From NCBI GenBank assembly GCA_003165655.1, contig PMOY01000361.1, positions 1-36,944 on the forward strand: 36,944 nucleotides of DNA, read 5' to 3'. Origin of the DNA: Solirubrobacterales bacterium (GTDB lineage: Bacteria; Actinomycetota; Thermoleophilia; Solirubrobacterales; Solirubrobacteraceae). The notes under the pieces were generated by a model. The model was given only the letters and a program-made list of their open reading frames with translations. It did no database searches and was not told where the DNA came from. The first letter of the stretch is position 1, and each line of letters starts with the position of its first letter. The position numbers and the translations under genes are program-made. Shown here piece after piece: positions 27,604 to 29,743 of the stretch.

Positions 27604-27745
27604 CCGGCCGACTGGCGCAGAAGGCGGGCGCGGGGGCCGTCTTGCCGGCGGGTGTGCTCGAGCCGAGGGTGCCTCGTACGACCTCTGCGGATATCGGCGA
27701 TGCAGTCTGCTGGACTCTCGCCGCCAGATAGCGAATAATGCGCGC

Positions 27746-29743
27746 ATGCGGGCGACGGCGGCAATCTCAAGCTTCCGCCAGGTGGGGGAGCTCAGGCTCC
27801 TCGTGGGTCAGACTGACGACCACCTGGTCGCGCAGGTGCGTGCCGGAGACGAGGCCGCTTTCGAGGCGATTTACGATCGATATGCTCGCGGCCTGCTCTC
27901 GTTTTGCACGCAGATGCTCGGGAGTCGCGAGGCGGCGGAGGACGCGCTGCAGCTGACCTTCGTCTCCGCGTATCGGGCGCTGTGTAGTGGGCAAAGCAAC
28001 ATCTCGCTGCGGCCCTGGCTGTACACGATCGCGCGCAATCGCTGCCTGTCTGAGCTGCGCACCCGGCGCGATGCCGTCAGCACGGATGGAATCGATGTCG
28101 ATCGACCATTCGACGGCCTCGCACACCAGGTCCAGCAGCGCGAGGAGCTACGCGAAATGCTGGAAGACCTGCAGCGGCTCCCGGCTGACCAGCGCGCGGC
28201 GCTGGTGCTGTTCGAGCTCGGCGACCACTCGCACCATGAAATTGCTCAGGTGCTGGGCGTGCGCCGGGAGAAAGTGAAGGCGCTCATCTTCCAAGCCCGC
28301 GAGGCGCTCGTGCGTAGCCGGCAGGCGAGGGATCGTCCGTGCGCGGAGATCCGGCAGCGGCTGGCAACGCTCCAAGGGCGGATCCTCCCCCGCAGCACGA
28401 CGCGCGCCCACATCGATCGCTGCCCGAGCTGCGCGGCGTTCGAGCACGAGGTCGGGCATCAGCGGACCGTGCTCGCGCTCGTTCTGCCCGTGATGCTGAC
28501 CGGCGAGCTCAAGGCGTCGGTGCTGGCCTCGGTGCTGGGGGGTGGCGGAGGTTCGGTTGCGGTCGGCGCCGGCGCCGGAGGCGGAGCAGTCGTCGCGGGT
28601 GGCGCGGGCGGCGCGGGCGCCGGAGGGAGCAGCGCCGTGGTGGCGGGTGGCGCGACAGCCGGAGGCAGTAGCGCCGGCGTCGCGGGTGGCGCGACCGCGG
28701 CCGGTGCCGCGACCGCCGGCCCGGTCGTCGCGAGCGTTGGCGCCGCGAGCAGCCTCGCCGGCGTTGGCGCAGGTGCGGCCAGCTCAGCGGTGGTCGCCGC
28801 CGCGCCGGTCGCGGCGGTCTCGACCGGGCTGGCCGCGGTGGGCACGGACTATGCCGGCACCGGGGTCGCTGGGCTGAGTGCAGCCGGGATCGTCACGAAG
28901 ATCCTCACCGCAGCCGTGATCGCGACCAGCGTCGCCGGAGTCAGCCGGGCCACCAGCCACCAGAGCCGACTGCCTTCAGTGCCGGCGCTGATTCAGCAGA
29001 CCCCGGTGACGCCCGCCCCCACCTCGTCCGCGTCGACGACGTCTGCGCCGAGCGATCCCACCTTGGTCGCCTCGACGACGTCTTCGGCGAGCGAGCCCGC
29101 GGCGAGCGACCCCAGCTCGATTACGCCGACGATGTCTTCGGCGGGCGGTGCCACCACGAGTGGATCGACGACGTCTCCGGCGGGCGGTGCCAGCACGAGT
29201 GGATCGACGACGTCCACGGCGAGCGATCCCACGGCGAGCGATCCGACGGCGAGCGATCCCGCGGCGAGCGATCCCGCGGCGAGTGATCCCGCCTCAAGTG
29301 ATCCGGCGGCGAGCACGGCGAGCGATCCGACGGCGAGCGATCCGACCGCGAGCGATCCCGCGGCGAGCGATCCCACCCCGAGCGGCGCTGACGCGAGTGG
29401 ATCGACGACGTCGACGGGGAGCGGTTCTGACGCGAGTGGATCGACGACGTCGACGGGGAGCGGTTCTGGCTCGAGCGGATCGACGACGTCGACGGGGAGT
29501 GGCGCTGGCTCGAGCGGATCGACGACGTCGACGGGGAGCAGCTCTGGCTCGACTCCGCCGACGACGTCCACAGCAAGCGATCCCGACTCGGCCGCGTCGA
29601 CGACGTCCACCGCGAGCGACCCGGACTCGACTGCGACGTCGACGTCCACGGCGAGCGACCCCGACTCGAGTGCGACATCGACGGCAAGCGACCCCGACTC
29701 GGCCGCCGTTTCCACCGACGCACCTGCAGACACCGACTCCTAG
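27746..29743 (+). CDS. ECF sigma factor fused to a zinc-finger domain, membrane helix and repetitive Ser/Thr/Asp tail
   Basis: A 665-residue protein. Residues 30-100 are sigma region 2 (FEAIYDRYARGLLSF, AEDALQLTFVSAYRAL, RPWLYTIARNRCLSELR); 135-195 are region 4 (RLPADQRAALVLFELGDHSHHEIAQVLGVRREKVKALIFQARE). Cys199 with H222-x3-C226-x2-C229 forms a zf-HC2-like anti-sigma zinc motif. Residues 265-375 are a Gly/Ala/Val-rich stretch, about 376-400 a likely membrane helix (AAGIVTKILTAAVIATSVAGV), and 401-665 a Ser/Thr/Ala/Asp/Pro tail of SDPTA units and four 13-residue DASGSTTSTGSGS repeats. Sigma and anti-sigma functions would thus be on one membrane-anchored chain with the tail outside, as in some ECF groups with long C-terminal extensions. 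How it is released is unknown. Probably leaderless at 27746. Confidence 0.85.
   Translation: MRATAAISSFRQVGELRLLVGQTDDHLVAQVRAGDEAAFEAIYDRYARGLLSFCTQMLGSREAAEDALQLTFVSAYRALCSGQSNISLRPWLYTIARNRCLSELRTRRDAVSTDGIDVDRPFDGLAHQVQQREELREMLEDLQRLPADQRAALVLFELGDHSHHEIAQVLGVRREKVKALIFQAREALVRSRQARDRPCAEIRQRLATLQGRILPRSTTRAHIDRCPSCAAFEHEVGHQRTVLALVLPVMLTGELKASVLASVLGGGGGSVAVGAGAGGGAVVAGGAGGAGAGGSSAVVAGGATAGGSSAGVAGGATAAGAATAGPVVASVGAASSLAGVGAGAASSAVVAAAPVAAVSTGLAAVGTDYAGTGVAGLSAAGIVTKILTAAVIATSVAGVSRATSHQSRLPSVPALIQQTPVTPAPTSSASTTSAPSDPTLVASTTSSASEPAASDPSSITPTMSSAGGATTSGSTTSPAGGASTSGSTTSTASDPTASDPTASDPAASDPAASDPASSDPAASTASDPTASDPTASDPAASDPTPSGADASGSTTSTGSGSDASGSTTSTGSGSGSSGSTTSTGSGAGSSGSTTSTGSSSGSTPPTTSTASDPDSAASTTSTASDPDSTATSTSTASDPDSSATSTASDPDSAAVSTDAPADTDS
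29390..29545 (+). repeat. Four tandem 39-bp repeats inside the sigma-factor tail
   Basis: Copies begin at 29390, 29429, 29468 and 29507; the core GTGGATCGACGACGTCGACG is exact in the first two, and the last two vary at a few bases. Each encodes 13 residues (GSTTSTGSG with variable ends). Flanking DNA has many shorter GCGAGCGATCC units encoding SDP. Copy number is likely to vary between strains. Confidence 0.85.

Follow-up and report, generated by a model that had tools for sequence, protein, structure and literature searches.

The window, by which we mean the whole stretch of DNA analysed here (36,944 nucleotides), comes from a Solirubrobacterales bacterium whose genome is available as a draft assembly of 434 contigs (4.2 Mb). 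On its forward strand lies a gene for a 665-residue protein in which an ECF sigma factor and an anti-sigma domain are followed by a linker, a probable membrane helix and a long tail. The features of the locus are as follows:

27711..27739, +, sigma-70-type promoter-like site TGGACT-N17-AATAAT, 6 nt 5′ of the ATG
27746..29743, +, ECF sigma/anti-sigma fusion gene, the 665-aa product also having a probable membrane helix and a disordered tail
27869..28069, +, sigma region 2, residues 42-108, PF04542 (Sigma70_r2) E 6.6e-14, AlphaFold2 (AF2) pLDDT ~95
28169..28309, +, sigma region 4, residues 142-188, PF08281 (Sigma70_r4_2) E 2.9e-11
28340..28537, +, class I anti-sigma domain, residues 199-264, from AF2, invariant columns and zf-HC2 matches in relatives
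28538..28879, +, uncharged Gly/Ala/Ser/Val low-complexity linker, residues 265-378
28880..28942, +, hydrophobic helix, conserved and probably membrane-spanning though marginal, residues 379-399
28943..29740, +, Ser/Thr/Ala/Pro/Asp low-complexity tail, residues 400-665 (266 residues), with 39-nt and 15-nt repeats

The gene is real and in frame: it starts with an ATG, at the same start codon as its orthologues, and ORF analysis finds zero internal stops. The promoter-like site was found once where 0.1 would be expected in shuffled sequence. Its position only 6 nt from the ATG, together with a comparable TGGACT...CAAAAT-6 nt-ATG arrangement in the closest orthologue (L139), suggests a leaderless mRNA transcribed from a housekeeping-type promoter. 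An AT-richer -10-like hexamer precedes the start codon in the window (27711-27745) and upstream of L139, L134, L135, L140 and L143, at a distance of ~6-8 bases in most of these relatives. These shared hexamers suggest that leaderless transcription may extend to the fused family.

Sigma and anti-sigma domains

The initial annotation had placed sigma regions 2 and 4 on a single chain, and the domain search bears this out. Both PF04542 and PF08281 score above their cut-offs while regions 1 and 3 are absent, which identifies the protein as an ECF factor, and the NCBIfam sigma70-ECF profile gives 79.9 bits against a cut-off of 42.9. Two cysteines of region 2, C54 and C100, are more than 90% conserved in the fused family and might have a redox or metal role.

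The sigma regions are directly followed by a candidate zinc module. AF2, run on residues 1-419, gave a pLDDT of ~95 across sigma 2, sigma 4 and the first three helices of this module (199-208, 218-225 and 227-246); a loop carrying P248 and a less certain helix at 254-264 come next. In class I anti-sigma domains, a flexible link joins a bundle of three helices to helix 4, which touches sigma 2 (PMC7406223), and the predicted bundle of helices 1-2-3 with its flexibly linked helix 4 fits this anatomy. The predicted zinc ligands C199, H222, C226 and C229 are invariant in 42 relatives, as is P248, and the four ligands are also invariant in an alignment of 32 homologues; C199 played no part in choosing the homologue set. 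The zf-HC2-like motif of the initial annotation is indeed present as HxxxCxxC at residues 222-229, and 28 of the 42 relatives match zf-HC2 (best E 1.3e-4), but the window protein alone scores 13.5 bits, under the Pfam cut-off of 22.2. RsiW ranked second in a PDB profile search and was the sole anti-sigma factor found, with a weak match (E 0.059). Most of the top Foldseek matches were sigma factors complexed with their anti-sigma factors (AlgU-MucA, sigmaE-RseA, SigW-RsiW), and the isolated anti-sigma domain gave no significant Foldseek match.

The strongest evidence that the module is an anti-sigma domain comes from a Rosetta-stone test, in which a profile built from fused domains only was run on 247 genomes of the phylum and 16 loci were read. 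At 11 of these the domain forms the N-terminal part of a separate protein encoded beside a same-strand ECF sigma gene, and in 10 of the 11 proteins a hydrophobic segment over threshold follows it; at four others (L151, L159, L160 and L161) it is fused to a sigma factor. Judged by this profile, the fused module is homologous to proteins encoded beside ECF genes. Since the profile finds separate membrane anti-sigma factors next to sigma genes, the identification does not depend on the motif alone. The proposal that the sigma factor has an anti-sigma domain of its own is well supported by the AF2 model, the invariant ligands, the zf-HC2 matches of relatives and the stand-alone homologues: in the window protein, an ECF sigma factor and a complete class I anti-sigma domain share a single chain.

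A paralogue in the same genome (L014, contig C113, reverse strand) is 283 aa long and ~50% identical. It ends just past the zinc motif and has no helix 4, linker, hydrophobic helix or tail; no linker or tail could be read in its other two frames, and its sequence is that of a naturally truncated or decayed copy.

Linker, hydrophobic helix and tail

The linker of the window protein contains one charged residue in 113 and is disordered in the AF2 model (pLDDT mostly <50). This lack of charge is general, as only 21 of 1621 residues are charged between the anti-sigma domain and the helix in 34 fused proteins, whereas the matching juxtamembrane segment of the 11 stand-alone anti-sigma factors is short and basic, with 65 of 191 residues charged. 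That the segment from inhibitor to membrane is uncharged in fused proteins and short and basic in separate anti-sigma factors is a new observation. The ECF52-like L160 and L161 also possess an uncharged Gly/Ala tract. Linker length is variable, down to 10-20 residues in relatives of the same architecture.

Within a hydrophobic segment at ~374-399, AF2 places a helix at 379-399 (pLDDT ~70), whose position is conserved in relatives as a Lys followed by ~20 hydrophobic residues. The single membrane helix of the initial annotation therefore keeps a conserved segment and a predicted helix in its favour, but it is marginal. Its KD value is 1.88 and its insertion energy, estimated like the others given here on the scale of Hessa et al. 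2005, is +2.8, compared with ~-0.2 for the helices of L109 and L126. Its hydrophobicity does not exceed that of shuffles of its own composition, and the same test reached p<0.05 in only 1 of 34 relatives. Flanking Lys and Arg residues average 0.9 before the helix and 1.5 after it, so that an N-inside orientation is not favoured and the charges indicate no clear topology. We take residues 379-399 to be a membrane helix, probable though marginal. A second one, at 242-260, was also considered and is unlikely: this stretch (estimated insertion energy ~+4.7) belongs to the anti-sigma domain, where AF2 assigns it to the end of helix 3, the invariant-Pro loop and helix 4.

Beyond the helix, residues 406-665 comprise 76 S, 51 T, 43 A, 29 P, 25 D and 21 G with a single K/R, and the tail is 48% Ser+Thr and 11% Pro. 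Its repeat periods of 39 and 15 nt correspond to 13 and 5 codons. No stop interrupts frame +1, in which the codon-position pattern stays steady over 401-665, while the other frames contain stops. Orthologues have in-frame low-complexity tails too, including two in complete single-contig genomes (L029 in G035 and L034 in G015). The initial annotation had named a frameshifted tail as one finding that would undo it; the codon pattern and the orthologues' tails rule against one. The exact length is uncertain, given a 434-contig draft and two relatives (L022 and L025) whose contigs stop inside this region. Thus, of the long external tail first proposed, the ~266 in-frame residues stand, and the external location is plausible by analogy with ECF52 (PMC5826349).

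Orthologues with 59-75% identity in the sigma and anti-sigma domains differ widely in the composition of their tails. Among relatives, the tail is of Thr/Pro in L022 and of Ser/Thr/Gly/Ala in L023 and L024, and it is rich in Lys/Arg in L028, L032 and L033. Even close orthologues have no tail sequence in common, a finding that speaks against binding of a specific ligand. Probably the tail functions generically, as a disordered stalk or a target of proteases, and not as a specific sensor. Control of sigma release by the state of the tail, as initially suggested, could with such complete divergence operate only generically, through length, disorder, protease access or glycosylation. The host genome encodes a PMT-family candidate, which nothing ties to the window tail.

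A different kind of tail occurs in one fused sigma/anti-sigma protein (L151:595-2859, -), where an Ig-like Big_7 domain is accompanied by another long region, propeller-like by eye but with only a weak DPPIV_N match. L151 is thereby a candidate for the same architecture equipped with a folded external sensor.

The family and related systems

Sigma homologues were found in all 61 of 61 related genomes, and in 60 of these the listed best match extends beyond the zinc motif. The complete genome G035 has ten matches to the module, seven of which coincide with sigma matches, giving at least seven fused genes; among the places listed by a module search of 21 genomes, most coincide with fused sigma ORFs. 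In a careful tree of the sigma domains, the Thermoleophilia fused proteins form one clade (support 95/90), and the ECF52-like pair (100/100) and the L109/L126 pair (100/99) are each separate. A quick tree had suggested several independent origins of the fusion, but one clade uniting all fused forms withstands an AU test (p 0.75), and we make no claim of independent origins. No neighbouring gene or synteny is shared among the loci of 12 relatives, and none of them has a recurring neighbour fit to be a separate anti-sigma factor or operon partner. A Dehalococcoidia (Chloroflexota) contig also encodes a similar sigma/anti-sigma/helix fusion outside Actinobacteria (L126:2223-4346, +), with a weak Ig-like match in its tail.

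Fused sigma/anti-sigma architectures were described earlier for ECF48, ECF52 and ECF53 (PMC8999054), and the reading given in the initial annotation is mostly the published ECF52/ECF48 idea. ECF52 (SCO4117 of Streptomyces coelicolor) has the same order as the window protein, that is sigma 2, sigma 4, zinc anti-sigma domain, linker, helix and low-complexity tail, and, like the window family, it is restricted to Actinobacteria; the likeness of the Gly/Ala linker was seen in the ECF52-like L160. L160 follows the ECF52 plan: its zf-HC2 match exceeds the cut-off, and it has an NPCBM carbohydrate-binding domain (E 3.2e-27) and a clearer helix (KD 2.13). In contrast, domain search finds no NPCBM in the window protein, its probable membrane helix is weaker than that of ECF52, its tail is Ser/Thr/Asp-rich whereas the ECF52 extracytoplasmic region is proline-rich, and its sigma domain falls in another clade than the ECF52-like pair, within the limits of the AU test above. 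A sigma-only truncation of SCO4117 kept partial function (PMC5826349).

The mycobacterial ECF48 also carries sigma factor, CHCC anti-sigma domain, one helix and a tail on one chain. L109, a probable ECF48 member by its architecture, differs from the window protein in its charged acidic linker, its strong membrane helix and a sigma domain that groups with L126 in another clade. ECF53, compared here by its description only, has a C-terminal extension with a zinc finger and a transmembrane part (PMC8999054). IutY (ECF243) of Pseudomonas putida is likewise a sigma factor fused to a membrane anti-sigma factor, and its activation by regulated proteolysis was shown experimentally (PMC8999054); unlike the window protein, it belongs to Gram-negative, iron-starvation cell-surface signalling. 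RsiW, ChrR and RslA, which are class I zinc anti-sigma factors, share with the window module a CHCC helix bundle and the linked helix 4 with which they clamp an ECF sigma factor. They are separate proteins, with a short basic segment ahead of a strong helix in those membrane-bound relatives that were examined here.

Among the papers searched, none combines ECF sigma factors and Thermoleophilia. The window protein is a member of a separate, very common and unstudied branch of fused sigma factors in soil actinobacteria. What is new here is this separate and abundant Thermoleophilia clade, the total turnover of tails on a conserved core, and the contrast in linker charge.

Proposed mode of activation

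Sequence and structural model support both domains, sigma and anti-sigma, and their union on one chain; we infer intramolecular inhibition, membrane insertion with the tail outside and activation by proteolysis. The best explanation, which we hold to be somewhat better than an even bet, is a one-chain autoinhibited sigma factor that is tethered to the membrane and probably released by proteolysis. The class I zinc anti-sigma domain would hold sigma regions 2 and 4, which directly precede it in the chain, inactive, and the inhibited module would probably be tethered to the cytoplasmic membrane through the uncharged flexible linker and one helix. The disordered tail would most likely lie outside and probably serve as a stalk or protease substrate with no specific binding domain. 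An envelope signal would then most likely lead to cleavage of the tail, cleavage of the helix and release of the sigma module, which would bind RNA polymerase once the inhibitor was removed or loosened. Such release has a demonstrated precedent in IutY and proposed ones in ECF48, ECF52 and ECF53 (PMC8999054). The host genome encodes an M50 site-2-type protease (E 2.6e-47), which lends the model little weight because M50 proteases are present in 14 of 14 control genomes.

A more speculative extension, which we regard as a long shot, is that the Gly/Ala tract halts a ClpXP-like protease at the anti-sigma domain after intramembrane cleavage, so that the sigma factor is released and not destroyed, the marginal helix easing release. 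In this reading a processive protease meeting no tract would digest from the new end through the inhibitor into the sigma factor, a hazard that only one-chain systems face, and the slippery tract would stop it where it adjoins the folded anti-sigma domain. ClpXP is reportedly hampered by Gly/Ala repeats (PMC9531181), and the presence of the tract in ECF52-like proteins and its absence from the separate anti-sigma factors examined here are as this reading predicts.

The membrane is the point most open to dispute. The protein could instead be a soluble, cytoplasmic autoinhibited sigma factor whose anti-sigma domain senses redox or zinc, with a disordered cytoplasmic tail and a helix that packs on a partner or on the protein itself. 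The marginal helix, no better than shuffles, would suit this, as would the lack of the positive charges that precede the helix in stand-alone relatives (the 21/1621 and 65/191 charged residues above), the over-representation of the CHCC zinc motif in soluble class I anti-sigma factors (PMC7406223), and the Lys/Arg-rich tails of L028, L032 and L033, which are odd for an exported tail and speak against the membrane model. However, strong membrane helices follow the same domain in 10 of 11 stand-alone relatives, NPCBM follows the L160 helix and Big_7 the L151 helix, both domains being usual in exported proteins, and the window tail is almost devoid of basic residues; we consider a soluble protein rather unlikely. 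If the protein is tethered, it might also be active without cleavage, a signal loosening the anti-sigma domain and the sigma factor acting while anchored through its long linker. The ~113 flexible residues of the window protein would allow this, but relatives of the same architecture manage with 10-20, and we found no demonstrated precedent in the ECF literature consulted, where proteolysis has IutY; permanent tethering is quite improbable.

It is more improbable still that the C-terminal half is no inhibitor at all, its zinc motif being structural, as such motifs may be (PMC7406223), and the protein being an ordinary ECF factor governed by its own transcription. The sigma-70-type promoter does suggest constitutive expression, yet the module is homologous by profile to anti-sigma factors adjoining ECF genes and is kept with invariant ligands across the order. 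Finally, the draft state of the assembly, the repeats and the contig ends of L022 and L025 might raise the suspicion that the tail is an assembly or frameshift artefact; against its open frame, its steady codon pattern and the in-frame low-complexity tails of most relatives, L029 and L034 included, this is scarcely credible. Overall the observation is well founded, with one soft spot, the membrane helix.

Few fused sigma/anti-sigma proteins have been studied experimentally (SCO4117 and IutY), and the fusion is a common type of regulator in a whole actinobacterial order. With its divergent tails on a conserved sigma-inhibitor core, the family constitutes a natural experiment on the roles of tail, linker and helix. 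It also bears on how a sigma factor may be freed from an inhibitor that is unable to diffuse away.
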